In this document: positions 5,109 through 60,415 of the stretch, in pieces | How positions within the stretch are numbered: position 1 is the first letter of the stretch | Layout of the letters: every line of letters begins with the position of its first letter | DNA from: Streptomyces sp. cg36 | GTDB taxonomy: Bacteria; Actinomycetota; Actinomycetes; Streptomycetales; Streptomycetaceae | DNA: 64,000 bases | Assembly (NCBI RefSeq): GCF_041080675.1 | Contig: NZ_CP163520.1 | Location: 1,984,001-2,048,000 of the forward strand | Reading direction: 5' to 3' | Program-made: the position numbers and the translations under genes | The notes under the pieces: model-generated | What the model was told of the DNA's origin: nothing | What the model saw: the letters and a program-made list of their open reading frames with translations, nothing else | Databases searched by the model: none

Positions 5109-5134
5109 GAAGTGGCGGTGTCCTTTCCTTCCAT

Positions 5135-5280: not shown

Positions 5281-5423
5281 CCGGTGCCGCGGCTGCGACG
5301 GATGGTGACGGACAGCGCGCCCGACGCTAATCGCCTGATCTTTCAATCGCCAAACAGACACCACTTTTTGTAGCGCACGCCACACGACAGACAGGCAACC
5401 TCTCCAATAAACCGGACATAAGG

Positions 5424-6885: not shown

Positions 6886-8234
6886 TGCTCTGCTCCCTCT
6901 GCGTCCGCGTCGGCCGCGGCCTCGTCCTCGGCGCCGGTCGGCTCGTAGACCAGCACCGCCCTGTTGTCCGGGCGCAGGGTGGCCCGGGCCGCGTCCCGCA
7001 CCTCCTCGGCGGTGACGGCGAGGACCCGGTCCACGGCGGTCAGGGCCAGCTGCGGGTCGCCGAACAGCACCGCGTAACGGCACAGTTCGTCGGCGCGCCC
7101 GGCGACCGTGCCCAGCCGGTCCAGCCACTCGCGCTCCAGCTGGGCCTGGGCGCGCTCCATCTCCTCGGCCGTGGGGCCCTCTTCGGCGAAGCGGGCCAGC
7201 TCGTCGTCGACGGCGGCCTCGATGTCCGGGACGTCCACGCCGCCGGACGTCTTCACGTCCAGCCAGCCGAGCGAGGGGGCGCCGGCCAGGCGCAGCAGGC
7301 CGAAACCGGCCGCCACGGCGCTCTGGTCGCGCCGCACCAGGCGGTTGTGGAGCCGGGAGGACTCGCCGCCGCCGAGGACGGTGAGCGCCAGGTCGGCCGC
7401 GTCGCACTCGCGCGTGCCGTCGTGCGGCAGCCGGTAGGCGGCCATCAGGGCGCGCGCGGGGACGTCCTCGTGGACGACCTCGCGCAGCTGCTCGCCGATC
7501 ACACCGGGCAGCGCGCCGTCGCGCGGCGGCTGCTTGCCGTCGTGCGAGGGGATCGAGCCGAAGTACTTCTCGATCCAGGCGAGCGTCTGCTCCGGGTCGA
7601 TGTCGCCGACGACGGAGAGGACCGCGTTGTTCGGCGCGTAGTACGTGCGGAAGAAGTGCCGCGCGTCCTCCAGCGTCGCCGCGTCCAGGTCGGCCATGGA
7701 GCCGATCGGCGTGTGGTGGTACGGGTGGCCCTCGGGGTAGGCCAGGGCGGTCAGCTTCTCGAACGCCGTGCCGTACGGCACGTTGTCGTACCGCTGGCGG
7801 CGCTCGTTCTTGACGACGTCCCGCTGGTTCTCCATGGACTCCTCGTCCAGCGCGGAGAGCAGCGAGCCCATGCGGTCCGCCTCCAGCCACAGCGCGAGCT
7901 CCAGCTGGTGGGTGGGCATGGTCTCGAAGTAGTTGGTGCGCTCGAAGCTGGTGGTGCCGTTGAGCGAGCCGCCGGCCCCCTGCACCAGCTCGAAGTGGCC
8001 GTTTCCGTGCACCTGGTGCGAGCCCTGGAACATCAGGTGCTCGAAGAGGTGAGCCAGGCCGGTGCGGCCCTTGACCTCGTGGCGCGAGCCCACGTCGTAC
8101 CAGAGGCAGACCGCGGCGACCGGGGTCAGGTGGTCCTCGGAGAGCACCACCCGCAGGCCATTGGCCAGCCGGTGCTCGGTCGCTGTCAGGCCGCCGGAGC
8201 CGGCCTGGGCGGTGGCCGTGTGACCCATGGGCAT
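6882..8234 (-). CDS. M16-family zinc metallopeptidase, catalytic subunit
   Basis: This 450-residue member of the insulinase/mitochondrial processing peptidase family has the inverted zinc motif HLFEH at about residues 57-61, inside GLAHLFEHLMFQGS. The downstream acidic ligand region ESMENQRDVVKNERRQRYDN lies about 75 residues later. The C-terminal M16 half contains a SSRLHNRLVRRDQS segment. No signal peptide is evident, so a cytoplasmic role is likely. The substrate is unknown. The ATG at 8234 has AAGGGA upstream. It is the first gene of a two-gene operon with the inactive partner and is divergent from parC. Confidence 0.93.
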   Translation of the reverse strand: MPMGHTATAQAGSGGLTATEHRLANGLRVVLSEDHLTPVAAVCLWYDVGSRHEVKGRTGLAHLFEHLMFQGSHQVHGNGHFELVQGAGGSLNGTTSFERTNYFETMPTHQLELALWLEADRMGSLLSALDEESMENQRDVVKNERRQRYDNVPYGTAFEKLTALAYPEGHPYHHTPIGSMADLDAATLEDARHFFRTYYAPNNAVLSVVGDIDPEQTLAWIEKYFGSIPSHDGKQPPRDGALPGVIGEQLREVVHEDVPARALMAAYRLPHDGTRECDAADLALTVLGGGESSRLHNRLVRRDQSAVAAGFGLLRLAGAPSLGWLDVKTSGGVDVPDIEAAVDDELARFAEEGPTAEEMERAQAQLEREWLDRLGTVAGRADELCRYAVLFGDPQLALTAVDRVLAVTAEEVRDAARATLRPDNRAVLVYEPTGAEDEAAADADAEGAEQ

Positions 8235-8413
8235 GTACGTCCCTTCGATCGCGGTGAAGAAGTCCTGCCACTGTATGCAAGCGCACCGACACCTGGCGAA
8301 GTTCCCGGGTCGCGGTCGGCGTTGTCAGCGGGACGGTCCACAATGGTCGGCGTCAGGAGCAGACCTTTTGGTGTCGCTGAGAAGAACTCGTTGGTGAAGG
8401 AGCCACAGCCGCG

Positions 8414-10867
8414 ATGGCCCGCCGCAGCACGAAGACCCCGCCGCCGGACGATTTCGAGGAGAAGATCCTCGACATCGACGTCGTGGACGAAATGCAGGGC
8501 TCCTTCCTTGAGTACGCCTATTCGGTGATCTACTCGCGGGCCCTGCCGGACGCGCGCGACGGCATGAAGCCCGTCCACCGCCGCATCGTCTACCAGATGA
8601 ACGAGATGGGCCTGCGCCCCGAGCGCGGCTATGTGAAGTGCGCCCGCGTGGTCGGCGAGGTGATGGGCAAGCTCCATCCGCACGGCGACGCGTCGATCTA
8701 CGACGCGCTGGTGCGGATGGCCCAGCCCTTCTCCATGCGGCTGCCGCTGGTCGACGGCCACGGCAACTTCGGCTCGCTCGGCAACGACGACCCGCCGGCC
8801 GCCATGCGGTACACCGAATGCCGGATGGCCGACGCGACCCAGCTGATGACGGAGTCGATCGACGAGGACACGGTCGACTTCTCGCCCAACTACGACGGCC
8901 AGGAGCAGGAGCCGGTGGCGCTGCCCGCCGCGTTCCCGAACCTGCTGGTCAACGGCGCGACCGGCATCGCGGTCGGCATGGCGACCAACATGCCGCCGCA
9001 CAACCTGGGCGAGGTCGTGGCCGCGGCCCGCCATCTGATCCGGTATCCGAACGCGGACCTGGAAGCGCTGATGCGCTTCGTGCCCGGCCCCGACCTGCCG
9101 ACCGGCGGGCGCATCGTCGGCCTCTCCGGCATCAAGGACGCCTACGAGTCGGGCCGCGGCACCTTCAAGATCCGCGCCACGGCGTCGGTGGAGAACGTGA
9201 CGGCCCGCCGCAAGGGCCTGGTCGTCACGGAACTGCCGTTCACGGTCGGCCCGGAGAAGGTGATCTCCAAGATCAAGGACCTGGTCGGCTCGAAGAAGCT
9301 CCAGGGCATCGCCGACGTCAAGGACCTCACCGACCGCTCGCACGGCCTGCGCCTGGTCATCGAGGTGAAGAACGGATTCGTCCCCGAGGCGGTCCTGGAG
9401 CAGCTCTACAAGCTGACGCCGATGGAGGAGTCCTTCGGCATCAACAACGTGGCGCTGGTGGACGGCCAGCCGCTGACCATGGGGCTCAAGGAGCTCCTTG
9501 AGGTCTACCTCGACCACCGGTTCGACGTGGTGCGCCGGCGCAGCGAGTTCCGCCGCACCAAGCGCCGCGACCGGCTGCACCTGGTGGAGGGCCTGCTCGT
9601 CGCGCTGCTCGACATCGACGAGGTCATCCGGCTCATCCGGTCGAGCGACAACTCGGCGCAGGCCAAGCAGCGCCTGATCGAGCACTTCTCGCTCAGCGAG
9701 ATCCAGACGCAGTACATCCTGGACACCCCGCTGCGCCGGCTGACCAAGTTCGACCGCATCGAGCTGGAGAGCGAGCGCGACCGGCTCACCGGCGAGATCG
9801 ACGAGCTGACCGGCATCCTGGAGTCCGACAGCGAGCTGCGCAAGCTGGTCTCCACCGAACTGGCGGCGGTGGCCAAGAAGTTCGGCACCGAGCGGCGGAC
9901 CGTGCTCCTGGAGTCGGCGGGCGCGCCGGTCGCGGCCGTCGCCCTGGAGGTCGCGGACGACCCGTGCCGGGTGCTGCTGTCCTCGACGGGTCTGCTGGCC
10001 CGTACGGCCAACGGCGAGCCCCCGGCCACCGACGCCGAGCGGCGCACCAAGCACGATGTGATCGTCTCCGCGGTGCCCGCGACCCAGCGCGGCGACGTCG
10101 GCGCGGTCACCTCGGCCGGGCGGCTGCTGCGGCTCGCCGTGATCGATCTGCCGCAGCTGCCCGACACGGCCTCGGCGCCCAACCTGTCGGGCGGCGCCCC
10201 GGTCTCGGAGTTCCTCTCGCTGGAGGCCGACGAGCGGCTGATCTGCCTCACCACGCTGGACGAGTCCTCGCCCGGTCTGGCGCTCGGCACCGAGCAGGGC
10301 GTCGTCAAGCGGGTGGTGCCCGACTATCCGGCCAACAAGGACGAGCTGGAGGTCATCGCCCTCAAGGACGGCGACCGGATCGTCGGCGCGGCCGAGCTGC
10401 GCACCGGCGAGGAGGACCTGGTCTTCATCACCGACGACGCCCAGCTGCTGCGCTACCAGGCGTCCCAGGTGCGTCCGCAGGGCCGTCCGGCGGGCGGCAT
10501 GGCGGGCATCAAGCTCGCCGACGGCGCCAAGGTGATCTCCTTCGCGGCGGTGGACCCGGCGGCGGACGCGGCGGTGTTCACGGTGGCGGGCTCGCGCGGC
10601 ACCCTGCTGGGCGACTCGGCGGCGACCGCCAAGCTCACCCCGTTCGACCAGTACCCGCGCAAGGGCCGGGCCACCGGCGGCGTGCGCTGCCAGCGGTTCC
10701 TGAAGGGCGAGGACATGCTGGTCCTGGCCTGGACGGGCGCGGCACCGGCCCGCGCCGCGGGGACGGGCGGCGCCCCGGTCGAGCTCCCCGAGCCCGACCC
10801 GCGCCGCGACGGCTCGGGCACCCCGCTCGCCCATGTGGTGACGGCCCTGGCGGGCCCGGCCGCGTAG
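8414..10867 (+). CDS. parC: DNA topoisomerase IV / gyrase-like subunit A (ParC)
   Basis: This 817-residue type IIA topoisomerase A subunit cuts and rejoins DNA to unlink chromosomes. The active-site tyrosine is in [10 protein letters not shown] (about residue 138), and the quinolone region [17 protein letters not shown] lies about 40 residues before it. The breakage-reunion domain is followed by the coiled-coil gate and C-terminal beta-pinwheel repeats (for example [15 protein letters not shown] and [17 protein letters not shown]). The partner subunit is encoded at 32104-34224. Streptomyces has a separate gyrA near oriC, and ParC/ParE act as topoisomerase IV; I infer ParC from the context with M16 genes, parE and hrdB. 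It ends at a large hairpin. Confidence 0.92.
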
Positions 10868-47051: not shown

Positions 47052-48275
47052 TCACTGAGTGATCTTGATCAGCTGACCCTCGGTGCCGACCGAGTTGTTC
47101 GTCACGTAGATCGCGTCGTCCGGGCCGACCGCGAGGCCGGTGGACATCGCCAGCTTGCCGTCGGTCGGGATCTCGGTGACGGCCTTGGTCTTGATGTCGA
47201 TCTTGCTCAGCTTGCCCGGCAGCGGCGGGCCCTGCTGCTGGAAGCCGCCCGTGAGGGTGAGCGCGATCAGGTTGCCGTCCTTGTCCTGGGCCAGGTCGCT
47301 CACCGCGGTCAGACCGCTGGCGAAGACCTCGGCGCGGTGGCCCGGCACGATCCGCCAGATCCGCGAGCCGCCGGGGCGCAGACCGCCCATGTCCGAGACG
47401 TAGAACGCGCCGTCCTTGCCCTTGACGATGCCGCTGGGCACCGACTGGACCTTGACCGTGCCGTCGGCCGCGACCGTCTTGGTCTGCGGAACGAGGGACT
47501 CCAGGGCCTTCTTCTCCTTGGCCGACGGAGCCGCGGCGGGACCCTGCGCCGGAAGCTCGTTGTCCGGGAAGATCGCCTCGGTGGTGGTGCGCCCGCCGAA
47601 GCCCACGCCGATCAGGTCGTTGGCGCCGGCGTCGGTGACCAGGAAGCCACGGCCGTTGCGGGCGAAGCGCCACGCGTTGCTGTGGATCGACGCCTCTTCC
47701 GGGTTGGCCGGGTGGCCGAGGATCCAGTCGGGGTCGAGGAGCGTCTCGTGCTTGACCGGGTCGCCGACGACCCAGCCGCTCGACGTCTGCAGCGTGCCGA
47801 GCTTGGCCGCGTCCTTGCCGAGCGCGGCGCGGTCGTCCGTGCCGCCGCCGAAGCCGCTGAGGACGAGGTAACCCGACCCGTTGGCCTCCACGTCGTTGGG
47901 GCCGGCGGCCGAGATCGGCTCGTACGGGTTGGTCGGGGCCACCGCGGAGGACGCCAGGCCGGTGACGACGCGGCCCTGCTGGGTGCCCTTGACGCGGTAG
48001 ACCGAGCCGGTCAGGCCGACGCACTTGGTGCCCGGCGCGCAGCCCGGCTTGCCGATGCCCGACTCGGCGATCAGGATCGTGCCGTCCGCCTGGACCGAGA
48101 GTCCGCGCGGGTTGTTGAGCTTGCTCGCAATCACCTCAATGTTGGCGGTGGCGGCAGTGGCCTTCGCCTCCTTCGGCGCGGCCTGGGCCGGGCCGGGGAC
48201 GAGCGTGGCAGCCAAAGTGCCCACGGCCGCCGCCGCCACGAAGGCCCCACTCCAAGACCTGCGTATTCTCGACAT
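47052..48275 (-). CDS. ScyD/ScyE-family secreted beta-propeller protein
   Basis: This 407-residue protein has a signal peptide (1-33, ending PGPAQAAP). It is followed by NHL/SMP-30-like blades: LNNPRGLSVQADGTILIAESG, GPNDVEANGSGYLVLSGFGG, VTDAGANDLIGVG, VPSGIVKGKDGAFYVSDMGG and STGLAVGPDDAIYVTNNS. These match the ScyD/ScyE family named after the scytonemin cluster of cyanobacteria, where the role of the family is not settled. Homologues without scytonemin genes are common in actinobacteria. The ATG at 48275 has GGGAGAG upstream. It is notable here because ebo-like genes lie only about 1.5 kb away, on the far side of the methyltransferase. Confidence 0.85.
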   Translation of the reverse strand: MSRIRRSWSGAFVAAAAVGTLAATLVPGPAQAAPKEAKATAATANIEVIASKLNNPRGLSVQADGTILIAESGIGKPGCAPGTKCVGLTGSVYRVKGTQQGRVVTGLASSAVAPTNPYEPISAAGPNDVEANGSGYLVLSGFGGGTDDRAALGKDAAKLGTLQTSSGWVVGDPVKHETLLDPDWILGHPANPEEASIHSNAWRFARNGRGFLVTDAGANDLIGVGFGGRTTTEAIFPDNELPAQGPAAAPSAKEKKALESLVPQTKTVAADGTVKVQSVPSGIVKGKDGAFYVSDMGGLRPGGSRIWRIVPGHRAEVFASGLTAVSDLAQDKDGNLIALTLTGGFQQQGPPLPGKLSKIDIKTKAVTEIPTDGKLAMSTGLAVGPDDAIYVTNNSVGTEGQLIKITQ

Positions 48276-48612
48276 GTCTCTCCCTCATCATGGCGTGCCC
48301 CCGTCATTGGGAGCGGACTCAACCGGCGCCACGATAGACGCTTCTACCTCAACCTTCCCGTATTCCCTGGAGAGTTGTCAGACCTGTCCGACTGCGGCCT
48401 ATCCGCAGTTGCACACTTGAATGGCGCTCGGAATTCGCTGGTGCGGAAGTGGTGCACGGATTTCGGCCAACTGCGGGTATGTTCGGTCGCGTTGAGTGGT
48501 TGTTCGGCGCCGAGGTCCGCCTCTAGAGTCTGGCGGGCGACGCCCATAGTTTCCGGTATCCCGGTAATTGAGACTCTTGATACCGCTGCGCAACCGCCCA
48601 CGGAGGATACGC
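48276..48612. other. 337-bp divergent intergenic region (ScyD/E-like and methyltransferase genes)
   Basis: This stretch is distinctly less G+C-rich than the genes and probably contains both divergent promoters. A small CTGCGG / CCGCAG hairpin occurs near 48391-48407. No ORF is supported. Confidence 0.6.
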
Positions 48613-49695
48613 ATGCCCCCAATTCCGCCCGCCCGAGTCGTCCGCATCGTCGAGGGGTTCCGCGCGCGGGTGCAGCGCCTCGCCCAGCTGATGGTGCCCG
48701 CGCCGATCGCCGTCCTGGAGCTCGCCCAGGGCGCCTGGGTGTCCCAGGCGATCTACGTGGCGGCCGAGCTCAAGATCGCCGACCAGCTCGCGGACGGTCC
48801 GCTCACGTCCCAGGAGATCGCCAAGCGCATCGAGGCCGACCCGGACGCGGTGCACCGGCTGCTGCGCGCGCTCGCCAGCTACAAGATATTCAGCGAGCAG
48901 AGCGACGGGCGCTTCAAGCTGACCCCGATGGCCGAGGCCCTGCGCACCGGCACGCCGAACTCGATGCGCGACATGGCGCTGTTGACGGGCCACCCCGCGA
49001 GCTGGGAGGACTGGGGCGCCCTGATCCACACCGTGCGCACCGGCCAGCCGAGCCTTGAGAAGAACCGCGGCATGCACGCGTACGAGTACCTGGGACAGAA
49101 CCCGGAATTCGCGGAGATCTTCCTCAACGGCATGGGCACGCTCTCGAATATGGAGACCGAGCCCATTCTCGCGGCGTACGACTTCTCCAAGTACAAGACG
49201 CTGGTGGATGTCTTCGGCGGGCGCGGCGGTCTGCTGTCGGCGATCCTCAAGAAGTCGCCCGCCTCGAAGGGCATCCTCTTCGATTCCCGTGCGGACGAGC
49301 TGGACGCCAACGGGTTTCTCACCGAAGAGGGCGTGGTCGAGCGGGTCGAGATCGACAAGGGCGATCTCTTCGGGCCGCTGCCGGCCGGTGCCGACGCCTA
49401 TCTCCTGAAGCACATTCTGCACGAATGGCCGGAGCCGAAGGCGCTGGAGATCCTCAAGCACACGCGTGAGGCGATCAGCCCCGACGGACGCCTTCTCGTC
49501 ATGGAATTCGTTCCTCCGGAGGGCAACGCGGCGCACCCGGCCAAGCTGGTCGACCTGTGGCTGATGATCCTGGTCGGCGGCAAGGAGCGGACGGCCCGCC
49601 AGTACTCCGAGATCCTGCGCGCCACCGGCTTCGAGCTCGACCGCGTGGTGCAGACCGCCGCGGGCGTCTCCATCGTCGAGGCCCGCCCGGTCTGA
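48613..49695 (+). CDS. SAM-dependent O-methyltransferase (acetylserotonin/hydroxyindole OMT-like)
   Basis: This 360-residue protein transfers a methyl group to a hydroxyl, usually of an aromatic small molecule. The N-terminal dimerisation winged helix (about 35-100) reads AIYVAAELKIADQLADGPLTSQEIAKRIEADPDAVHRLLRAL. The SAM motif I is VDVFGGRGGLLSAIL (with F for the usual G), and the catalytic His region is LLKHILHEWPEPKAL. The ATG at 48613 has GGAGGA 7 bases upstream. Such enzymes belong to secondary metabolism. It is divergent from the ScyD/E-like gene and convergent with the ebo-like operon, separated by a long hairpin. Confidence 0.92.
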   Translation: MPPIPPARVVRIVEGFRARVQRLAQLMVPAPIAVLELAQGAWVSQAIYVAAELKIADQLADGPLTSQEIAKRIEADPDAVHRLLRALASYKIFSEQSDGRFKLTPMAEALRTGTPNSMRDMALLTGHPASWEDWGALIHTVRTGQPSLEKNRGMHAYEYLGQNPEFAEIFLNGMGTLSNMETEPILAAYDFSKYKTLVDVFGGRGGLLSAILKKSPASKGILFDSRADELDANGFLTEEGVVERVEIDKGDLFGPLPAGADAYLLKHILHEWPEPKALEILKHTREAISPDGRLLVMEFVPPEGNAAHPAKLVDLWLMILVGGKERTARQYSEILRATGFELDRVVQTAAGVSIVEARPV

Positions 49696-49713: not shown

Positions 49714-49765
49714 CGGCACGAAAAGGCTCCTGGCGGATCGTTCCGCCAGGAGCTTCTTCGTGCCG
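49714..49765. terminator. Long bidirectional hairpin between the methyltransferase and the ebo-like operon
   Basis: Arms 49714-49737 and 49742-49765 pair over 24 positions with only one or two mismatches around a TCGT loop. An AAAA run in one arm and TTCTTC in the other give U-rich ends in both directions. Confidence 0.85.
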
Positions 49766-49804: not shown

Positions 49805-51199
49805 TTACTCCAGTCCCGCCAGCCGCAGCAGCAGGCCCTTCACCTCGGTCGCCTCGATCGCGTCGCCCACCGCGCCCGGCGCCGAGCACAGCAGCAGCGG
49901 CCCGTCCTGCGGGTCGTCGGGGAGCCGGCCGTGGCTGCCGCGCACCGGCGAGGGGTCGAGCGGGACCACCGCCATGCGGTAGCGCATCCCCAGCTTCTTG
50001 CGGGCCAGCGCCTTCGCCGCCTTGACCTTCACATACGGGTCGAGCGGGTCCATGAACAGCTCGACCGGGTCGTAGCCGGGCTTGCGGTGGATCTCCACCA
50101 GCTGGGCGAAGTCCGGGGCGCGGTCGTCGTCGAGCCAGTAGTAGTACGTGAACCAGGCGTCCGGCTCGGCGATCGCGACCAGTTCGCCCGCGCGCGGGTG
50201 GTCCAGGCCGAAGCTCTTCTTGCCCTCGTCGTCGAGGAGCTGGTCGATGCCCGCCACGTCCGCGAGGGCCTCGCGGACGGCCGCCAGGTCCTCGGGCCTG
50301 CGGACGTAGACGTGCGCGAGCTGGTGGTCGGCGACCGCGAAGGCCCGCGAGGCCATCGGGTCCAGGTACTCCATCCCGTCCTGGGTGTGCACTTCGAGCA
50401 GCCCGGCCCGGCGCAGCGCCCGGTTGATGTCGACGGGGCGGGTCACCTTGGTGATGCCGTACTCCGACAGGGCCACCACCGTGCGGCCGGCCGCCTCGGC
50501 GTCGTCGAGCAGCGGGCCCATCGCGGCGTCCAGGTCGGCGGCGGCGCGGTAGGAGCGCGGGTCGTCCGGCCCGAAGCGCTGGAGGTCGTAGTCGAGGTGC
50601 GGCAGATAGCAGAGCGCCAGGTCGGGTGCGCGGGTCGCCAGGATGTGCCGGGTGGCGTCGATGATCCACTGCGAGGAGACGAGGTCGGCGCCGGGCCCCC
50701 AGAAGTTGAAGAGGGGGAACGTGCCGAACTTGTCGTGGAGTTCGTCGTGGAGCGCCGGGGGCCGGGTGTAGCAGTCGGGCTCCTTGCGGCCGTCGGCGTA
50801 GTAGACCGGGCGCGGGGTGACCGTGATGTCGGTGTCCGCGCCCATCGCGTACCACCAGCAGATGTTGGCGACGGTGTAGCCGGGGTGGGCGCGGCGGGCC
50901 GCGTCCCACAGCTTGTCGCCCTCGACCAGGCCGTTGTGCTGGCGCCACAGCAGCACGTCGCCGAGGTCGCGGAAGTACCAGCCGTTGCCGACGATGCCGT
51001 GCTCGGCGGGGAGCGTGCCGGTCAGGAAGGTGGACTGGGCGGCGCAGGTGACGGCCGGGAGCACGGTGCCGAGCTGCGCCCGCGAGCCGCTGCCCGCCAT
51101 CGCCCTGAGGCGCGGCATGTGGTCGAGCAGCTTGGGGGTCAGCCCGACGACGTCCAGGACGAGGAGCGGGGTGGGTGCGCCGGTGCGGTCGTCGGTCAT
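49805..51199 (-). CDS. Alkaline-phosphatase-superfamily phosphodiesterase/pyrophosphatase (EboF-like)
   Basis: This 464-residue protein is of the nucleotide pyrophosphatase/phosphodiesterase type. It has the N-terminal metal Asp in LLVLDVVGLTP, the nucleophile region LPAVTCAAQSTFLTGTLPAEHGIVGNGWY (Thr nucleophile in AVTC), LPHLDYDLQRFG, and SEYGITKV in the C-terminal metal site. No signal peptide is visible. It is the last gene of the ebo-like operon, and its ATG overlaps the EboE stop codon as ATGA. In ebo clusters a phosphatase of this kind is called EboF. The natural substrate is unknown. Confidence 0.85.
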   Translation of the reverse strand: MTDDRTGAPTPLLVLDVVGLTPKLLDHMPRLRAMAGSGSRAQLGTVLPAVTCAAQSTFLTGTLPAEHGIVGNGWYFRDLGDVLLWRQHNGLVEGDKLWDAARRAHPGYTVANICWWYAMGADTDITVTPRPVYYADGRKEPDCYTRPPALHDELHDKFGTFPLFNFWGPGADLVSSQWIIDATRHILATRAPDLALCYLPHLDYDLQRFGPDDPRSYRAAADLDAAMGPLLDDAEAAGRTVVALSEYGITKVTRPVDINRALRRAGLLEVHTQDGMEYLDPMASRAFAVADHQLAHVYVRRPEDLAAVREALADVAGIDQLLDDEGKKSFGLDHPRAGELVAIAEPDAWFTYYYWLDDDRAPDFAQLVEIHRKPGYDPVELFMDPLDPYVKVKAAKALARKKLGMRYRMAVVPLDPSPVRGSHGRLPDDPQDGPLLLCSAPGAVGDAIEATEVKGLLLRLAGLE

Positions 51200-52365
51200 G
51201 GCAGTTCCTTGAGGCCGAGGTCGGTCAGCAGGTCCTTGGCGAGGGAGAGTTCGGCGGCGATGCCGTCGGCCAGCCGGTCCCGGTCGCGCGGGCGCAGCTC
51301 GGCGGGCAGCGCCTGCCAGGTGTACGTCTCCACCTCCAGGTGCCGGGTGTACGCGACGGGGCCGCCGACGAGCGCGGTCAGCGCCTCGCGCAGGACGGGC
51401 AGGGTGGAGGTGAGCGGCGCCACGGGCCGCGCGTGCAGCGGTACGTGGAAGTGCGCGCGCCAGGGCGCGCCGTCCGGCAGGGCGGGTCCGGCCAGTGCCT
51501 CGCCGAGGTCGTCGGTGCCGAGCAGCCCGGCGGCGCCCCTGGTGCGGGTCTGGTGCAGGAAGCGCGGTTCGGCGAACTCGGCGAGCGCGGCCCGGACGGC
51601 CGGGTCGGCCGGGTCCTCGGCGTGCAGCGCGGCCGAGAGCTGGACCTTGGGGACGGTGATCCCGGCGGAGCGCAGTGCGCCGAGCGCGCTCGCCGGGTCC
51701 TCGAAGGAGGTGGCGAGGTGGCAGGTGTCGACGCAGACGCCGATGCGGGGCGTGCCGAGGGCCGCGAGCGGGGCGATGGCGTCGGCGGTGGTCTCCACGG
51801 TGCAGCCCGGCTCGGGTTCCAGACCGATCCGGATGGATTTTCCGGTGGCCTCCTCCAGGAGGTCGAGCCGTCCGGCGAGGTCGGTGAGCGCGCCGTGCGC
51901 GGCCTCGGCCTGCGCGGGGCCGAAACCGGTGCGCCAGGCGAGCGGCAGTGTGGAGATCGTGCCCTCGGTGACGTCGTCCGGCAGCAGGGCCGCGAGCAGC
52001 CGGGCCAGTTCGGCGGTGTACTCCAGACGCTCCGGATCCGTCCAGTCCGGTTTGTACACCCGGTACTTGACCTCCTCGGCGCCGAACCCCTCGTACGGGA
52101 AGCCGTTGAGGGTGACGACCTCCAGGCCGCGCCGGTCGAGTTCGGCGCGCAGCCCGCGCAGCGCGGCCGGGTCGGCGCCCAGCTCCCGCGCCGCGTCCCG
52201 GGCCAGCCACAGACCGATGCCGAGCCGGTCGGTGCCCAGCCGCAGCCGGACCGGCTCGCAGTGGTCGCGCAGCTGGGCGAGGACGCCGTCGAGGGTCTCG
52301 GCGGGATGGACGTTGGTGCAGTACGCGAGGTGGACCGTCGATCCGTCGCGGTGGCGCAGGCGCAT
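51196..52365 (-). CDS. eboE: EboE-type metabolite traffic protein (TIM-barrel sugar isomerase/epimerase-like)
   Basis: This 389-residue TIM-barrel protein begins HLAYCTNVHPAETLDGVLAQL, a strong EboE hallmark. Further segments are VVTLNGFPYEGFGAEEVKYRVYKPDWTDPERLEYT, GLEPEPGCTVE, CVDTCHLATSFEDP and HFHVPLHARPVAPL. The conserved Glu, Asp and His residues are metal-binding candidates. In cyanobacteria EboE is part of a set needed to export scytonemin precursors to the periplasm; its own reaction is not known. The ATG at 52365 lies 2 bases after the TatD-like stop codon. Confidence 0.9.
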   Translation of the reverse strand: MRLRHRDGSTVHLAYCTNVHPAETLDGVLAQLRDHCEPVRLRLGTDRLGIGLWLARDAARELGADPAALRGLRAELDRRGLEVVTLNGFPYEGFGAEEVKYRVYKPDWTDPERLEYTAELARLLAALLPDDVTEGTISTLPLAWRTGFGPAQAEAAHGALTDLAGRLDLLEEATGKSIRIGLEPEPGCTVETTADAIAPLAALGTPRIGVCVDTCHLATSFEDPASALGALRSAGITVPKVQLSAALHAEDPADPAVRAALAEFAEPRFLHQTRTRGAAGLLGTDDLGEALAGPALPDGAPWRAHFHVPLHARPVAPLTSTLPVLREALTALVGGPVAYTRHLEVETYTWQALPAELRPRDRDRLADGIAAELSLAKDLLTDLGLKELP

Positions 52366-52367
52366 GC

Positions 52368-53216
52368 TCACTCGCCGCCGCGGAGGATGGAGTTGCCCTC
52401 GTGCAGGGTGCCGGGCGCGACCGGTCCCAGGTCCAGACGGCCGCTCAGCCCGTAGAAGGCGACCGGGTTGCGCCACAGCACCAGGTCCACCGCGTCCTCG
52501 TCGAACCCGGCCTTCAGCATGGCGTCGGCGACCTTGCGGGTCTTGAGCGGATCGCTCTTGCCCCAGTCCGCCGCCGAGTTGACCAGCACCTTCTCCGGCC
52601 CGTACTCGTCCAGGACGGCGACCATGCGGTCCTCGTCCATCTTGGTGTCCGGGTAGACGGAGAAACCGAGCCAGGCGCCGCTGTCCTTGGCCTCGCGCAC
52701 CGTCGTCTCGTTGAGGTGGTCCACCAGGACGCGGTCGACGGCCAGCGCCGACTCGCGCACCACGTCGAGGGTGCGGCGCAGTCCGGTCAGCTTGTCGCGG
52801 TGCGGGGTGTGCACCATGGCGGGCAGCCCGTGTTCGGCGGCGAGCTGCAGCTGGGTGGCGAACGCCTCGTCCTCGGCGGGCGTCATCGAGTCGTACCCGA
52901 TCTCGCCGACCGCGACAACGCCGTCCTTGACCAGATAGCGCGGCAGTTCGGCCAGGACGGGCGTGCAGCGCGGGTCGTTGGCCTCCTTGGGGTTGAGCGC
53001 GATCGTGCAGTGGTGGGCGATGCCGTACTGCGCGGCGCGGAACGGCTCCCAGCCGAGCAGCGCGTCGAAGTAGTCGTAGAAGCTCGCGGGCGAGGTGCGC
53101 GGCTGGCCCAGCCAGAACGACGGCTCGACGACCGCGCGCACACCCGCCGCGTGCATCGCCTCGTAGTCGTCGGTGGTGCGGGACGTCATGTGGATGTGCG
53201 GGTCGAAAATACGCAT
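52368..53216 (-). CDS. TatD-family metal-dependent hydrolase (EboB-like)
   Basis: This 282-residue amidohydrolase-fold protein has N-terminal metal motif IFDPHIHMTSRT (HxH), ALNPKEAND, and VAVGEIGYDSMTPAED, with the metal Glu in GEIG. Later motifs are MVHTPHRDK and DHLNETTVREAKDSGAWLGFSVYP. It is the EboB counterpart by family and by position in the operon. The reaction is unknown; TatD-like enzymes hydrolyse phosphodiester or amide bonds. It starts 2 bases after the EboA stop codon with GAGGAG as its ribosome site. Confidence 0.9.
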   Translation of the reverse strand: MRIFDPHIHMTSRTTDDYEAMHAAGVRAVVEPSFWLGQPRTSPASFYDYFDALLGWEPFRAAQYGIAHHCTIALNPKEANDPRCTPVLAELPRYLVKDGVVAVGEIGYDSMTPAEDEAFATQLQLAAEHGLPAMVHTPHRDKLTGLRRTLDVVRESALAVDRVLVDHLNETTVREAKDSGAWLGFSVYPDTKMDEDRMVAVLDEYGPEKVLVNSAADWGKSDPLKTRKVADAMLKAGFDEDAVDLVLWRNPVAFYGLSGRLDLGPVAPGTLHEGNSILRGGE

Positions 53217-53218
53217 GG

Positions 53219-53827
53219 TCAGGACTCCTCGGCCCCGGTGAGGGCCAGTACGCGGTGGAGGTCGTCGGGGACGGGGCGGCCGGCGGCGGTGCGCTCCGCG
53301 GCGAAGTCGCCCAGCATCCGGGCGAGTTCGCCGTCGCCTTCGGCGCGTCGGGCGAGGGAGGCGATCGCGGCCACCGGGACCCCGGTGAACAGGCACTTCA
53401 GTACGGCGTGCCGCCAGGCGTGCGGCTCCAGATGGGCCGCCGCGAACGGGCCGACGGCCGCGGCCACCAGCCGGGTGTCATTGGCCCGCAGCGCGTCCTC
53501 GACCAGCGCCACCCCGTCGGCCGGGCCGAGCTCCAGGGCGTCCAGGGCGAGCAGGACGGCGCGCCGCTCGGCGGCCGTGCCCTGCTGGTAGAGGCGGGTG
53601 GCGGTGGGGCCGTCGACCCGGGCGGTGCGCAGCAGCAGCACCCGGGCCTCGTCGACGGCGTCGGCGCCGAGGCGGCGTCCGGCCGAGGCGAAGCGCAGCT
53701 CCCAGGGCGCGGTGCCGTATCCGTCACCGGGCCGCTCGGCGGTGTGCCGGGCCTCGGCGAGCGCCTCGTCGAGCCAGGCGCGCGCGGCGCCGTCCAGCCG
53801 TGCGTCGAGTTCGGTGGGGGGTGTCAC
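53219..53827 (-). CDS. eboA: EboA-type protein
   Basis: This 202-residue all-helical protein has no known catalytic motif. The family signatures are ARVLLLRTARVDGPTATRLYQQGTAAERRAVLLALD and HAVLKCLFTGVPVAAIASL near the C-terminus. EboA proteins occur only in ebo-type clusters, so this gene anchors the assignment of the whole operon. The GTG at 53827 overlaps the stop codon of the preceding TIM-barrel gene as GTGA. Confidence 0.85.
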   Translation of the reverse strand: MTPPTELDARLDGAARAWLDEALAEARHTAERPGDGYGTAPWELRFASAGRRLGADAVDEARVLLLRTARVDGPTATRLYQQGTAAERRAVLLALDALELGPADGVALVEDALRANDTRLVAAAVGPFAAAHLEPHAWRHAVLKCLFTGVPVAAIASLARRAEGDGELARMLGDFAAERTAAGRPVPDDLHRVLALTGAEES

Positions 53828-54678
53828 GGGCGGGCTCCCTTCTCGATCAGCGGGCGCAGGAACTCCATGGACCTGCGGGCCTGTTCGGGGCCCGCGTGGG
53901 AGTGGCGGGGCAGCTCCACGACGGTCAGGCCCGTGTAGCCGGTGGCGCTCAGCGCATCGAGCAGCGGCGGGAAGTCCATCTCGCCGTCCCCGAACGGCAG
54001 GTGCTCGTGCACCCCGCGCCGCATGTCCTCGATCTGGACGTGCCGCAGCCACGGCGCGGCGGCCCGCACGCACGCGGCGGGCGGCTCCGGCTCCAGGCAC
54101 TGGCAGTGCCCGAGGTCCAGGGTCAGCCCCAGCGGGCCGGGGTCGCCCAGCTGCTCGCGCAGCCGGTGGAAGTCGGCCAGGGTGGCCAGCAGATGGCCGG
54201 GCTCGGGCTCGATCGCCAGCGGGACGCCCGCCGCTTCGGCCGCGTCGAGGACCGGTGCCAGGCTCTCGCCGAGCAGCTTCCAGGCGGTGTCCTCGCCGGT
54301 GCCGTCGGGGGTGATGCCGCTGAAGCAGTGCACGGCGTGCGCGCCGAGGTCGGCGGCCACCTGTACGGCCGTGACCAGCAGCGCGGTGCGCCGGGCCCGG
54401 TCGTCCGGGTCGGGATCCAGCAGGGTGGGCCCGTGCTTGCGGCGCGGGTCCAGCACATAGCGGGCGCCGGTCTCCACGGTGACGCCGAGACCGAGCTCGC
54501 CGAGCCGCCGGGCCACCCGGCGGGTGCGTTCGGCGAGGCCGGGGGCGAGCGGGTCGAGGTGCATGTGGTCGAGGGTGAGGCCGACGCCCTGGTAGCCGAG
54601 GTCGGCCAGCAGGGCGAGGGCGTCGTCGAGCCGGAGGTCGGTCAGCCCGTTGGTGCCGTAGCCGAGGCGGACGCTCAT
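53824..54678 (-). CDS. Sugar phosphate isomerase/epimerase-like TIM-barrel protein
   Basis: This 284-residue protein is of the xylose-isomerase-like AP endonuclease 2 family. Metal-site residues are suggested by HCFSGITPDGTG, LAIEPEPGHLLAT, LTLDLGHCQCLEP and VQIEDMRRGVHEHLPFGDGEMDF. It differs from EboE and is an additional member of the operon compared with the six-gene cyanobacterial set. It could isomerise or epimerise the cyclised sugar product of the upstream cyclase (inference). The ATG overlaps the UbiA-like stop codon as ATGA. Confidence 0.87.
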   Translation of the reverse strand: MSVRLGYGTNGLTDLRLDDALALLADLGYQGVGLTLDHMHLDPLAPGLAERTRRVARRLGELGLGVTVETGARYVLDPRRKHGPTLLDPDPDDRARRTALLVTAVQVAADLGAHAVHCFSGITPDGTGEDTAWKLLGESLAPVLDAAEAAGVPLAIEPEPGHLLATLADFHRLREQLGDPGPLGLTLDLGHCQCLEPEPPAACVRAAAPWLRHVQIEDMRRGVHEHLPFGDGEMDFPPLLDALSATGYTGLTVVELPRHSHAGPEQARRSMEFLRPLIEKGARP

Positions 54679-55580
54679 GTGGGGCTGACCTTCCGTGCGA
54701 GGGTGCGGGCGACCGGGATCAGGCCGAGCAGCCCGGCGGCGGTGCCGGGCGCCCCGGCCCGCGCGGCCAGGGCCGCCTGGAGCGGGATCATGGCGCGGAT
54801 GCCGCCGCCGACGGCCCGCTGGGTGAGCGGGGGCGAGGGGTTGAGGGCGGCGTGCAGGAAGGGGCGGGCCGCGGTGGCCGTGTAGGTGGCGGCGAGCGCG
54901 GCCCCCGCGGCCCGGCGCACCGCCGCGGCGCGCCCGCCGGCCGGCGCGCGGTCCGGGCCGGCGGGTCCGGGCAGGGACGCGGTGAGCGCGCCCAGCGTGC
55001 CGGTGACCGCGAGCGCGGCCAGCGGCGCCTTCGCGGAGCCGCCGAAGACCTCGTGGCGCGAGACGGTGGTCACCGCGTAGGTGTGGGCGCCGAGGGCCGC
55101 CGCCGGGGCGAGGGCGCGGCGCGGGGAGCCCGCGGTGGCGGTGGCGCCGAGCAGCAGGTCGAGGGAGCGGGCCGCGGCCATCGCCGCCGGGCCCGCCTTG
55201 GTGTGCTTCAGCCGCAGGTCGTACGCCCAGACGGTGGCCGCGAGCGCGGTGGCGACGGCGCCCGCCGGGCGGCCCGCGCGGTGGGCGAGCGCCAGGCCCG
55301 CGCCGGTGAGCCCGGCCGCCGCCGCCAGTGCCGCGCCCGGCTTGACCCGGCCGGACGGGATCGGGCGGTGCGGCCGTTCGCGGGCGTCCTCCTCGCGGTC
55401 GGCCCAGTCGTTGAGCGCCATCCCGGCCTCGTACAGGCAGAGCGAGGCGCCGAGGGCGAGCGCGGTGCGGCCGTTCGGACGGCGTCCGGCGGACGCCGCC
55501 CCCGCGAGGGCGTCGCCGGGCACGGTGAACAGGGCGGAGACGCGCAGGAGTTCGGCCCAGTCGCGGGGCGCCGGGCTCAC
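54675..55580 (-). CDS. UbiA-family prenyltransferase-like membrane protein (EboC-like)
   Basis: In this 301-residue protein with about seven to eight transmembrane helices, the first Asp-rich motif is ALNDWADREEDARERPHRPIPSG (NDxxDxxxD), as needed to bind a prenyl diphosphate with magnesium. A second region, TVWAYDLRLKHTKAG, resembles the second motif. UbiA enzymes attach isoprenoid chains to soluble acceptors. EboC is the UbiA member of ebo clusters. The GTG at 55580 overlaps the cyclase stop codon as GTGA. Confidence 0.88.
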   Translation of the reverse strand: MSPAPRDWAELLRVSALFTVPGDALAGAASAGRRPNGRTALALGASLCLYEAGMALNDWADREEDARERPHRPIPSGRVKPGAALAAAAGLTGAGLALAHRAGRPAGAVATALAATVWAYDLRLKHTKAGPAAMAAARSLDLLLGATATAGSPRRALAPAAALGAHTYAVTTVSRHEVFGGSAKAPLAALAVTGTLGALTASLPGPAGPDRAPAGGRAAAVRRAAGAALAATYTATAARPFLHAALNPSPPLTQRAVGGGIRAMIPLQAALAARAGAPGTAAGLLGLIPVARTLARKVSPT

Positions 55581-56713
55581 CGGGCCTCCCGCAGCCGCTC
55601 GGCGAAGGAGAGGAGCGCCGCGTACTGCTCGGCCAGCGCCGCGGAGCCGCCGTCCGGGTCCTTGAAGTAGAAGCCCAGTTCGGGGCGGGGGCCGGTCAGT
55701 CCGCGCTCATGGGCGCGGGCGGCCAGCCGGGCGAGGTCCAGGACGAGGGGCGCGGCGAGCGCCGAGTCGCAGCCCTGCCAGATCGTCTGGAGCACCATGC
55801 GCGAGCCGAGGAAGCCCTCGAAGGCGATGTGGTCCCAGGCGGTCTTCCAGTCGCCGAGCGAGGGCACGTCGTCGATGTGCACCTCGCCCTCGGGCAGCGC
55901 GCCGAGGTTGTCCTCCAGGACGCGGTTCTTGCCCGCGTTCTTGGCGGCGGCGGCGGCCGGGTCGGCGAGCGAGGCGCCGTCGCCGCCGCCGAGCAGGTTG
56001 CTGCCGGACCACGCGCGCACGTCCAGGGCGCGCTGGCGGAACATCGGCGCGAGCACCGCGCGCAGCAGGGTCTGGCCGGTCTTGCCGTCGCGGCCCGCGT
56101 ACGGCACGGCCGCCTCCCGGGCCGCCGGGGCGAGGGCCGGGTGGTGCAGACCGGTCGAGGGAGTGAAGTTCACATAGGCACATCCGGCGCGCAGCGCCGC
56201 CGCCGCGTACAGCGAGGAGGCGGGCAGCCGGTCGGCGTCCTCGGCGGGCGCGGGCTCGGTGGAGGAGACGTTGACCACGACGGTGCGGGCGGCGCCGGTG
56301 CGCCGGGCGAAGCCGCAGATGTCGGCGGCGAACGCCTCGATCAGCTCCTGGTCGCCGCGGGTGTCGCCGGGCAGCGGGCCGCCCATGCGTATCTCCTCGT
56401 CGGCGGCGGCGAGTTCGGCGCGGACGGCGGCGGGAAGCCCGTGCGGCAGCACCCCGCCCGCGGCCAGCTCCTCGGCGCGCTTGGGCAGCGGGCCGCTCAC
56501 CACGTCGTGGCCGCCGAAGACGAGGGAGGACAGGGCGGGCAGGCCGCTGTCGGCGAACTCGGCGGTCTCGGTGACCAGGCCGGTGGGCCGCTGGAGACCG
56601 GCGGCGACGGCGGCGCAGCCGGCCACGGCCGTGGTGGCGACGGAGCCGCGGGCTCCGATGAACCAGACCCCCGTCCTGGGGACGTTGTCGCGGGTATCTG
56701 CGTACGGGGACAC
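55577..56713 (-). CDS. Inositol-3-phosphate-synthase-like cyclase at the head of the ebo-like operon
   Basis: This 378-residue protein of the myo-inositol-phosphate synthase family converts a sugar phosphate to a carbocycle with NAD. The NAD-binding motif is GVWFIGARGSVATTAVAG. A catalytic-Lys segment is GRDGKTGQTLLRAVLAPMF, followed by SNLLGGGDGASLADPAAAAAKNAGK in the place of the canonical NNDG region. VVNVSSTEPAP is also typical. I start it at the GTG at 56713, which has AGGAGG 6 bases upstream, instead of the longer TTG-started frame. It is the first gene of the seven-gene operon and occupies the role of EboD, the dehydroquinate-synthase-like cyclase. A separate housekeeping synthase probably exists elsewhere. 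Confidence 0.88.
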   Translation of the reverse strand: MSPYADTRDNVPRTGVWFIGARGSVATTAVAGCAAVAAGLQRPTGLVTETAEFADSGLPALSSLVFGGHDVVSGPLPKRAEELAAGGVLPHGLPAAVRAELAAADEEIRMGGPLPGDTRGDQELIEAFAADICGFARRTGAARTVVVNVSSTEPAPAEDADRLPASSLYAAAALRAGCAYVNFTPSTGLHHPALAPAAREAAVPYAGRDGKTGQTLLRAVLAPMFRQRALDVRAWSGSNLLGGGDGASLADPAAAAAKNAGKNRVLEDNLGALPEGEVHIDDVPSLGDWKTAWDHIAFEGFLGSRMVLQTIWQGCDSALAAPLVLDLARLAARAHERGLTGPRPELGFYFKDPDGGSAALAEQYAALLSFAERLREAR

Positions 56714-58526: not shown

Positions 58527-58895
58527 TCAGTCGCCGCAGACGCCGTCGACGGCGACCTTCTCGTACAGGTGCGGGGAGACGGTACAGCCCTCCGGGTAGC
58601 CCTCACCGACCGGGTGGACCCGGGTACCGGCGTGGGCGGCGGCCAGATGGGCGGCGGACTCCCACACCGCGATGTTCACCAGGACCCGGCTGCCGCCGAC
58701 GCCCCGGTGCATCTGGGTGGAGACGAAGCCGGGCTGCCGCTGGAAGTATGCGGCGTCCCGGCGCCAGAGCGCCAGGAACTCCTCCTGGCGCTCCTCCGGC
58801 ACGGTGAAGGTGTTGACGAGGGTCACCGGGCCGGTCCGCTCCTGGAGTTGCTTCACATAAGGAGTGGACTCGTCGGTCTCCACGAACTCGATCAC
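58527..58895 (-). CDS. Antibiotic biosynthesis monooxygenase (ABM) family protein
   Basis: This 122-residue ferredoxin-like-fold protein has VTLVNTFTVPEERQEEFLALWRRDAAYFQRQPGFVSTQMHRG and NIAVWESAAHLAAAHAG, typical of ABM proteins such as ActVA-Orf6-type quinone-forming monooxygenases. It may oxidise an aromatic intermediate without a cofactor. The GTG at 58895 has AGGAGG upstream. It lies 17 bp after the FAD hydroxylase gene, so the two are probably one transcript and act on the same aromatic substrate. Confidence 0.9.
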   Translation of the reverse strand: MIEFVETDESTPYVKQLQERTGPVTLVNTFTVPEERQEEFLALWRRDAAYFQRQPGFVSTQMHRGVGGSRVLVNIAVWESAAHLAAAHAGTRVHPVGEGYPEGCTVSPHLYEKVAVDGVCGD

Positions 58896-58912
58896 AGGAC
58901 CTCCTGTCGGAT

Positions 58913-60415
58913 TCAGCGGGGCGAACCGAACCAGCGGGCGAGCGCGTCGAGCAGTTCGCCACCGTCCGGCGAGGCCCAGGCGACATGGCCGTCGGGGCGG
59001 AGCAGAACGGCGTCCGGCCGCGTTCCCTCGACCGTATCGGCCGGCACCCAGCCGTCCGGGACGATGTCCACCCGGTCAGCCCAGGTGGCCGAGACGATGT
59101 CGATGCGGTCGGACCAGCCCTGTGCGAGCCGGGCCGCCCCCCGGCTGCCGTCGGCGGTGATCAGCACACCGCGGGCGGGGTGCAGCAGTGCGGAGACCCG
59201 GCTGGTGGAGCCGTCCGCCAGCTTCACCTCGCGGTCCGGCATCCGCAGCCCGAGCAGCGGGTGTCCGGTGCTGCCGCCCATGTCGTAGCGGATGCCGAGC
59301 CCGCTGACGTGTCCGGCCAGGCGCCGGGCCGCGTCCGGCGACTGCACCAGCTCGCGCATCACCTGGCGCATCGGCTCCATCTCGTCGCCGGTGAGGTAGA
59401 GCGACGCCTGGGCGAGGGTGTTGCGCAGCAGCTTCTCGCCCACCGGGTGCCGCTCGCTCTGATAGGTGTCGAGCAGCCCCTCGGGCGCCCAGCCCTTGAC
59501 GGTGGCCGCCAGCTTCCACCCGAGGTTCACCGCGTCCTGGACCCCGACGCTCAGCCCCTGGGCGCCGGCCGGGATGTGGATGTGGGTGGAGTCGCCGGAG
59601 AGCAGGACCCGGCCGCGCCGGTACTCGGCCGCCTGGCGGGTGGCGTTGGTGAACGCGCTCACCCACTTCGTCTCGGCGCCGTGCAGGGACTGGCCGGTCA
59701 ACTCCTGCCAGGAGTCCGCGATCTCGGCGAACGTGAGCGTGCTGTTGTCCCGGGGCGTCAGCTTCGCGGGGTGGATGATGATCCGGGTCACCCCCTCCTC
59801 CAGCCGGATCGCCATCACCATGCCGCCGTCGACGCGCTCGCCGATCACCCGCGGCTTGATGTCGGGGCGGTCGACGACGTCGGCCACGTACATCCCCCGG
59901 GTCGCCTCGCGGCCGGGGAAGTCGATGCCGGCCAGTTTGCGCACCCGGGACCGCCCGCCGTCGCAGCCCACCAGGTACTGGGCGGAGTGCTCGATCCGCC
60001 CGTCCGGCCCGTCCACCACCACGGTGATGCCGTCCGGCCCCTCCTCGAAGTCCATTACCTCGTGGCCGCGGCGCACGTCGACGCCCAGATCGGTGACCCA
60101 CGCCTCCAGGATCTCCTCGATCCGGTACTGGGGGACGCCGCGGATGCCGAAGTGGTTGTCCTCCAGGGCGGTGAAGTCGATGCGGACGCCGCCGAAGTGC
60201 CCCTCGTTGCCTATCTCGATGTCTCCGAAGCGGGCCAGCAGGCCGCGCTGGTGGAAGACCTCGGCGGCGCGCCGGGTGAATCCGACGCCCCGTGACTCCC
60301 CGCTGGGGGTGGCCCGCTGCTCGTAGACAACCACGTCAACGCCGTTCAGCCGGAGTTCGCCCGCCAGCATGAGACCGACCGGCCCTGCCCCGGAAATGAT
60401 CACGCCTGTTCCCAT
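58913..60415 (-). CDS. FAD-dependent aromatic hydroxylase (PgaE/RdmE-type)
   Basis: This 500-residue class A flavoprotein monooxygenase has the FAD-binding motif VIISGAGPVGLMLAGEL at the start, the DG motif YLVGCDGGRSRVRKLAGI near 160, and the GD motif GRVLLSGDSTHIHIPAGAQGLSVGVQDAVNLGWKLA near 285. A thioredoxin-like C-terminal domain follows (from about 390). Members such as PgaE and RdmE hydroxylate angucycline or anthracycline polyketides. The ATG at 60415 has GGAGG upstream. It is the first gene of a two-gene unit with the ABM protein. The substrate cannot be deduced, and no polyketide synthase is inside the window. Confidence 0.93.
   Translation of the reverse strand: MGTGVIISGAGPVGLMLAGELRLNGVDVVVYEQRATPSGESRGVGFTRRAAEVFHQRGLLARFGDIEIGNEGHFGGVRIDFTALEDNHFGIRGVPQYRIEEILEAWVTDLGVDVRRGHEVMDFEEGPDGITVVVDGPDGRIEHSAQYLVGCDGGRSRVRKLAGIDFPGREATRGMYVADVVDRPDIKPRVIGERVDGGMVMAIRLEEGVTRIIIHPAKLTPRDNSTLTFAEIADSWQELTGQSLHGAETKWVSAFTNATRQAAEYRRGRVLLSGDSTHIHIPAGAQGLSVGVQDAVNLGWKLAATVKGWAPEGLLDTYQSERHPVGEKLLRNTLAQASLYLTGDEMEPMRQVMRELVQSPDAARRLAGHVSGLGIRYDMGGSTGHPLLGLRMPDREVKLADGSTSRVSALLHPARGVLITADGSRGAARLAQGWSDRIDIVSATWADRVDIVPDGWVPADTVEGTRPDAVLLRPDGHVAWASPDGGELLDALARWFGSPR

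Follow-up and report, generated by a model that had tools for sequence, protein, structure and literature searches.

The 64,000-nucleotide stretch of Streptomyces sp. cg36 DNA analysed here (contig NZ_CP163520.1, positions 1,984,001 to 2,048,000; referred to below as the window) carries on its minus strand, at 49805-56713, seven consecutive coupled genes that are best explained, on sequence grounds, as the ebo gene set in an actinobacterial version that begins with an inositol-type cyclase. A protein of the myo-inositol-1-phosphate synthase (MIPS) type occupies the place expected for the cyclase EboD, and comparison of ebo loci makes it close to certain that the two cyclases replace one another in the genomes sampled. 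The best single reading of this exchange, which we infer, is one function with a replaceable ring-maker, and the main rival is a different, inositol-derived product. The ebo set occurs in many phyla, and scytonemin export in Nostoc depends on it; the presence of an unrelated ring-former in actinobacteria may hint at what the pathway needs, a polyhydroxylated carbocycle. The swap also points to cheap labelled precursors (inositol, glucose) and opens the ebo question to Streptomyces genetics.

The operon and its MIPS-like cyclase

Start and stop codons were read from the sequence; neighbouring genes overlap by 4 bases at four of the six junctions and are 2 bases apart at the other two. The families, overlaps and gaps described in a first-pass annotation of the window were all reproduced by this codon reading together with Pfam and NCBIfam searches. 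From first to last, the genes are:

55577..56713, minus strand: MIPS-like cyclase, first gene, 378 residues, GTG start codon, in the place of EboD (PF07994 and PF01658)
54675..55580, minus strand: UbiA-superfamily prenyltransferase of the SCO3242 family, 301 residues, EboC counterpart (NF045897)
53824..54678, minus strand: second xylose-isomerase-like TIM barrel, 284 residues, extra relative to classical ebo (PF01261)
53219..53827, minus strand: EboA, small and all-helical, 202 residues (NF035938, EboA_domain)
52368..53216, minus strand: TatD-like metal-dependent hydrolase, EboB counterpart, 282 residues (PF01026)
51196..52365, minus strand: EboE, xylose-isomerase-like TIM barrel, 389 residues (NF035939)
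49805..51199, minus strand: Type I phosphodiesterase of the alkaline-phosphatase superfamily, EboF counterpart, last gene, 464 residues (PF01663)

The block of EboA, EboB, UbiA, EboE and EboF is common to this operon and the published six-gene eboA-F set (Bacteroidota, Cyanobacteria and others; PMC5133447, PMC6282210), whereas two genes differ: EboD is gone, none being found in the operon by Pfam search, and MIPS and a second TIM barrel are extra, giving the order MIPS-C-TIM-A-B-E-F.

The earlier assignment of a MIPS-like enzyme to the head of the operon, where EboD would be expected, is borne out by both Pfam domains, with PF07994 scoring 110.6 bits (cut-off 25) and PF01658 99.7 bits (cut-off 27), and by the retention of the aligned active-site lysines. 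The nearest solved protein, at 193.7 bits, is 1u1i, a 'myo-inositol-1-phosphate synthase' that we take to be the archaeal enzyme of Archaeoglobus; the other solved matches are 1gr0 (47.9 bits) and 1jkf (47.6 bits), presumably the Mycobacterium and yeast proteins, and 6k96 (40.9 bits). Residues N255, K274, K278, K306, K367, D225 and D332 of 1u1i, which we assume to be catalytic, correspond to N239, K258, K262, K290, K351, D209 and D316 of the operon enzyme, and D209, K211, N239, K258, K262, K290, D316 and K351 are unvarying across the ten ebo-linked MIPS of an alignment designated A2. Alanine occupies the K278, K367 and N255 positions in some of the aligned chains (3qvw, 3qvx, 3qw2). The operon enzyme thus shares family and aligned active-site residues with 1u1i and differs from it in sitting in an ebo-like operon; its conversion of glucose 6-phosphate to an inositol phosphate is only predicted. 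It is very improbable that the enzyme makes some other carbocycle from another sugar phosphate, in the manner of Ari2 with its five-membered ring, in which case the product might match that of EboD. A 'Five-membered-cyclitol-phosphate synthase' of the MIPS superfamily is indeed matched, namely 6k96, presumably Ari2 itself, but the canonical 1u1i is far nearer and all compared active-site residues are retained.

With 42.2 bits against a cut-off of 638, the operon protein falls far below the model for the mycothiol inositol-3-phosphate synthase (TIGR03450), an enzyme of the same superfamily that presumably catalyses the same reaction. Two further MIPS in the same genome exceed that cut-off (730 bits for locus L001 and 667.8 bits for L002; loci and genomes are designated L and G throughout), and the operon copy is therefore a third, distinct MIPS. 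In a 71-row MIPS tree, the ebo-linked proteins form one group (support 85/94) together with four copies outside a full ebo block, separate from six Bacteroidota and two mycothiol MIPS. These findings address a possibility raised in the first-pass annotation, that the cyclase serves only mycothiol or phospholipid supply. MIPS chemistry does, as is well established, feed the mycothiol and phosphatidylinositol pools, but a gene that merely boosts inositol and is a passenger of the operon is hard to credit, given two mycothiol-type MIPS elsewhere in the genome and, as described below, the conserved gene order of MIPS loci and the covariation of MIPS with EboE.

The UbiA-superfamily protein scores 398.5 bits with the SCO3242-family model (cut-off 260) and has an NDxxDxxxD motif and an SRxEVxG-like stretch, the latter appearing to be unusual, both of which recur in most EboC among 25 aligned sequences. 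EboE scores 429.3 bits (cut-off 250) and weakly matches IolI in profile comparison, and EboA scores 154.1 bits with the domain model (cut-off 50) and is HEAT-like in a structure model, with a possible scaffold role. The second TIM barrel (155.5 bits) is modelled with a ketose-3-epimerase-type fold. The TatD-like protein (49.6 bits, cut-off 27; nearest solved protein AF_1765 at 97.1 bits) and the phosphodiesterase (223.2 bits, cut-off 23) have homologues that adjoin EboE in the loci of other phyla.

Exchange of MIPS and EboD among ebo loci

The tabulation of cyclase family per EboE operon that the first-pass annotation had proposed was carried out on 175 loci (the window and L063-L240 except L183-L186; L164-L167 are without EboE), a cyclase being counted when it scored more than 100 bits and lay within 9 kb of EboE. 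MIPS was found in 59 loci, EboD in 75, and both in none. All 59 MIPS loci belong to Actinomycetota, and the 75 EboD loci comprise one actinobacterium, L064, and 74 of 80 non-actinobacterial loci, which are the best 80 of at least 581 when ranked by EboE similarity to L064. All 59 MIPS loci agree in gene order and strand, the extra TIM barrel accompanies MIPS in 55 of them, and the pairwise distances of MIPS and EboE correlate over 57 loci with r of 0.88, a value reached in none of 500 permutations. In an EboE tree of 167 rows a single branch (SH-aLRT 100) places the 59 MIPS rows opposite the 75 EboD rows. The exchange is clean in the tabulated loci and coincides with a single deep split of the EboE tree, in agreement with the earlier suggestion that the cyclase can be swapped. 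Which cyclase came first is left undecided because the root of the tree is not fixed. Since L064, of the EboD type, and L226, of the MIPS type, are from the same family, the sets have probably also moved between lineages. EboA was not found in the L064 cluster, which encodes between EboD and TatD a protein of about 100 residues (approximately 8229-8501, plus strand), maybe the 'EboG' of PMC5133447.

Of 199 genomes drawn from the genus, 135 have an EboE above its curated cut-off; the corresponding counts are 24 of 396 for the phylum, 90 of 394 for the class, and 2 of 199 and 5 of 66 for two other classes, with overlap between the draws. Operon-type MIPS, searched for with the 10-row alignment A2 at E <= 1e-40, was found in 134 of the 199 genus genomes, that is, in 133 of the 138 that are EboE-positive (E <= 0.001) compared with one of the 61 that are EboE-negative. 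Among the matches listed, MIPS lies within 8 kb of EboE on the same strand at 116 of 150 EboE places. An ebo block is present in 43 of 54 hand-picked stretches, mostly from other genera with three from the same genus and some picked for weak or second EboE matches, and 41 of these 43 blocks have MIPS. The MIPS match is split in two segments, by an insertion or a frame break, in seven genomes (G001, G054, G082, G093, G108, G119 and G195). In G189, about 1.27 Mb separates MIPS and UbiA from the remaining ebo genes, which have a weak MIPS-like match at their own site (L163/L164), and G140 has an extra copy of MIPS and UbiA apart from the set, on a 0.38-Mb contig (L167).

An eboD homologue encoded elsewhere, which the first-pass annotation had named as a challenge to the swap, was sought with a profile of ten EboD proteins (A3) applied to eight candidates per genome. 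No EboD-level score was obtained in the 199 genus genomes, the maximum being 201.9 bits compared with 552-712 bits for full-length EboD of other loci. In the cg36 genome itself, an AroB-like and two EEVS-like PF01761 proteins scored 157.0, 152.6 and 151.9 bits; a fourth PF01761 place (L007), below the Pfam cut-off, lay outside this scoring. The reported absence of EboD therefore stands for the operon and, at EboD level by the A3 profile, for the genome. Conversely, the 33 genomes that contributed a set of non-actinobacterial loci (31 of these loci contain EboD) were searched for such a MIPS. At E <= 1e-10 it was absent from 24; it scored 226-247 bits in seven and 58-62 bits in two, compared with at least 524 bits for ebo-linked MIPS.

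Proposed pathway and alternatives

The full explanation favoured here, to which we would give a little under an even chance, is that the operon produces a prenylated membrane cyclitol aiding small-molecule export, with the ring-maker exchanged once. MIPS would convert glucose 6-phosphate to inositol phosphate, the extra TIM barrel, with its ketose-epimerase fold, and EboE would isomerise or epimerise the ring or its keto form, the EboF-like phosphodiesterase would remove the phosphate, and the UbiA enzyme would attach a prenyl chain, while EboA, a HEAT-like solenoid, would act as a membrane scaffold for these enzymes. The resulting prenylated cyclitol would reside in the membrane and help a small molecule to leave the cytoplasm, in keeping with what mutants and microscopy indicate for ebo in Nostoc. 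In this proposal a single ancient exchange substituted one ring-maker for the other, and because of that swap the pathway would need a carbocycle and no particular cyclase. A broader version, which is doubtful at present, would make ebo a general membrane system for a prenylated carbocycle carrier or cofactor, EboD acting on heptose phosphate in most phyla and MIPS on glucose phosphate in Actinomycetota, with a prenyl-ether inositol lipid as product and ScyD/ScyE-type secreted proteins as recurrent partners of both. We know of no description of this kind of lipid in bacteria.

The ideas of a prenyl-cyclitol and of a lipid carrier are not new: PMC5133447 put forward a prenylated cyclitol product of ebo in 2016, and PMC6282210 followed in 2018 with a cyclitol-plus-lipid carrier; the exchange is the added element. 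The MIPS/EboD exchange appears in no title or abstract opening among the matches listed, a scope that excludes supplements and subscription papers, and the word 'inositol' is absent from the main text of PMC5133447, PMC6282210 and PMC9235831. The BE-40644 pathway of Actinoplanes (PMC5133447) likewise combines a sugar phosphate cyclase with a UbiA-superfamily prenyltransferase and offers a precedent for a prenylated cyclitol, but its cyclase is an EEVS and its UbiA member is other than EboC. Saccharomonospora ebo clusters are shown in PMC9235831, and ebo is also treated in PMC8879130 and PMC6092422.

Alternatively, the UbiA enzyme might prenylate an aromatic or heteroaromatic acceptor, the cyclitol belonging to another branch, for example as a sugar-like head group or a signal, and itself staying unprenylated. 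We regard this as improbable. The sub-cut-off profile matches of the operon UbiA protein (26-53 bits) include prenyl-glycerol-phosphate synthases, enzymes that prenylate a polyol hydroxyl. The case for an aromatic acceptor comes from Ubi-297, an EboC that in vitro farnesylates 8-hydroxyquinoline-2-carboxylic acid and quinaldic acid, and from two of its homologues that farnesylate the former (PMC9235831). However, the 14 acceptors used in that work are described as aromatic (PMC9235831), which leaves room for a cyclitol.

Besides the quinoline activity of Ubi-297, a number of points weigh against one function with a replaceable ring-maker. Two operon proteins lie under the full-family cut-offs of classical ebo, UbiA with 129.6 bits against the EboC equivalog NF035940 (cut-off 250) and EboA with 52.9 bits against the EboA_family model (cut-off 320). 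The two cyclase classes yield different products, C7 without phosphate and C6 with phosphate, and exchange need therefore not mean equivalence. No MIPS match was obtained in five EboE-positive genomes of the genus (G014, G050, G068, G150 and G198, of which G050 is 82% and G198 81% complete), and 34 of the 150 EboE places among the matches listed have no MIPS within 8 kb. Ten of 20 regions chosen for a MIPS-less EboE or a MIPS away from EboE (L182, an ordinary MIPS operon, is the exception among the 20) belong to a MIPS-less paralogous group; among the other EboE places listed, some lie close to the end of a contig or have been broken up by rearrangement (G189). Eleven of the 54 hand-picked stretches hold lone EboE-like actinobacterial genes with no other ebo gene (L202, L216, L224, L225, L227-L232 and L235), EboD at 100 bits is missing from six of the 80 non-actinobacterial loci (L093, L110, L111, L114, L142 and L148, although L114 and L148 are contigs of less than 5 kb and L148 holds a cut EboD piece), and the extra TIM barrel is missing from 4 of the 59 MIPS loci.

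The sampling and the searches count in the same direction. The EboE tree is quick and unrooted, with uneven letter make-up and long branches; the non-actinobacterial loci were ranked against an EboE that is itself of the EboD type; the actinobacterial loci were hand-picked (8 Streptomyces and 12 others, the 20 chosen regions and the 54 stretches); and the evenly drawn genome samples lie within Actinomycetota only. The search for EboD is imperfect and can miss it, because five of the 199 genomes gave no A3 match, not even AroB, and eight candidates were scored per genome. In 56 of the 59 MIPS loci the fetched stretch has no ScyD/ScyE-family gene. The available portions of the ebo literature searched give a product for no ebo cluster, and a test for an export phenotype in an actinobacterium was not found in the literature searched, to the extent that it was available. 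As a separate observation, most of the lone EboE-like genes form two groups (L202, L216, L224 and L225; L227-L232), one falling with the EboD-type rows in the EboE tree and the other matching mainly the first 242 profile positions.

A further point against the favoured explanation is the MIPS-less paralogous Streptomyces group, in which UbiA, TIM barrel, EboA, TatD, EboE and phosphodiesterase genes have no MIPS beside them. Twelve such loci were examined (L075, L077, L168-L175, L178 and L179), L238 being the thirteenth of 13 rows in the EboE tree. MIPS is encoded elsewhere in 10 of the 12 genomes. Neighbouring genes encode a P450 (8 of 12, often downstream), a CrtO-like FAD enzyme (7 of 12) and an inositol-monophosphatase-family protein (6 of 12; PF00459, 194.1 bits), the last two upstream, and a gamma-glutamyltranspeptidase (7 of 12), counts that are lower bounds from a crude gene caller run on stretches no longer than about 20 kb, with each family identified on one member. 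On sequence evidence these clusters fit an ordinary inositol phosphate input supplied in trans, the phosphatase family being a broad one.

The P450, CrtO-like and inositol-monophosphatase-family neighbours also have the look of specialised metabolism, and thus lend some weight to the main rival, that actinobacteria put the same kinds of enzyme to use in a different pathway, which makes an inositol-derived specialised metabolite, such as a prenylated inositol, with no carrier and a product unlike that of classical ebo. The deep EboE split with long branches between the types and the two differing genes, MIPS and the extra TIM barrel, are consistent with such a pathway, as is the listing of SCO3242, which gives the prenyltransferase family its name, and the adjacent SCO3243, a 'myo-inositol phosphate synthase', alongside the CDA antibiotic cluster in an S. 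coelicolor transcriptome paper (PMC3610822); from its family name and annotation, SCO3243 is probably this MIPS of S. coelicolor. We nevertheless consider a different pathway unlikely. EboA, EboB, EboE, EboF and UbiA remain together as a block, an EboE above cut-off in 135 of the 199 genus genomes is a wide distribution for a specialised product, ScyD/ScyE-family neighbours occur with both types, and in L193 and L200 the set is flanked by genes whose proteins read as clpC-like and disA/radA-like housekeeping functions.

ScyD/ScyE-family neighbours and flanking genes

The operon is flanked in the window by the following features:

47052..48275, minus strand: ScyD/ScyE-family gene downstream of the operon (NF033206, 245.3 bits, cut-off 80)
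48568-49695, plus strand: divergent O-methyltransferase gene between the ScyD/ScyE-family gene and the operon
49726..49753, minus strand: intrinsic-terminator-like hairpin, 12 pairs then CTTTT, 51 bases past the last stop codon
56918..58054, minus strand: co-directional regulator with ParB-like and helix-turn-helix segments, 204 bases before the MIPS start (PF13384; TIGR00180 weak)

The hairpin is a consensus match only, four such occurring in the region compared with 2.7 expected. The regulator is outside the conserved set, being present in the fetched stretch of one of the 59 MIPS loci, the window itself.

Members of the ScyD/ScyE family are rare in the genus: only 12 of the 199 genomes have any, and together these encode 17. 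For six of the 17 genes an ebo-type MIPS is found no more than 10 kb away, compared with a chance expectation of 0.06: those of the window and G168 are beside the operon, at similar distances from EboE, and G184 and G047 each have a pair beside a stand-alone MIPS. When apparent sister genomes, and pairs, are each counted once, the figures become 2 of 12 loci observed and 0.04 expected (P 0.0007). L193 and L200, from another family, have two ScyD/ScyE-family genes directly upstream of the MIPS operon. Such genes are beside 3 of the 59 MIPS loci and 3 of the 80 non-actinobacterial loci (L094, L101 and L118, all cyanobacterial and of the EboD type), counts that are lower bounds because, the window excepted, the stretches searched span at most about 20 kb. 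Since ScyD/ScyE-family genes adjoin both MIPS- and EboD-type loci, the same kind of partner is found beside both forms of ebo, the classical form having them likewise in some loci. The tandem pair beside the set in L193 and L200 resembles that of L101 and L118, as in scytonemin-associated cyanobacterial ebo; however, the actinobacterial loci have MIPS and not EboD, and the likeness covers the ScyD/ScyE-family genes only. The scytonemin monomer builds up in Nostoc mutants of scyE as well as of ebo, in the latter within the cytoplasm; the role of ebo in export, to the periplasm or the cell exterior, comes from Nostoc genetics and microscopy only (PMC6282210).

The stand-alone ebo-type MIPS genes of L165 (G184) and L166 (G047) are accompanied by two ScyD/ScyE-family genes and a cis-prenyltransferase-family gene (PF01255, tested on L165), L165 having in addition a vanadium-haloperoxidase-like gene; this neighbourhood is possibly a separate biosynthetic cluster. 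Upstream of the operon in the window, at 58530-60415 on the minus strand, an ABM-family protein (PF03992) and an FAD aromatic-hydroxylase-type protein (PF01494, PF21274) perhaps form a small biosynthetic neighbourhood. A c-di-AMP riboswitch (RF00379, 78.7 bits) at 5123-5282 on the minus strand of the window is unrelated to the operon.

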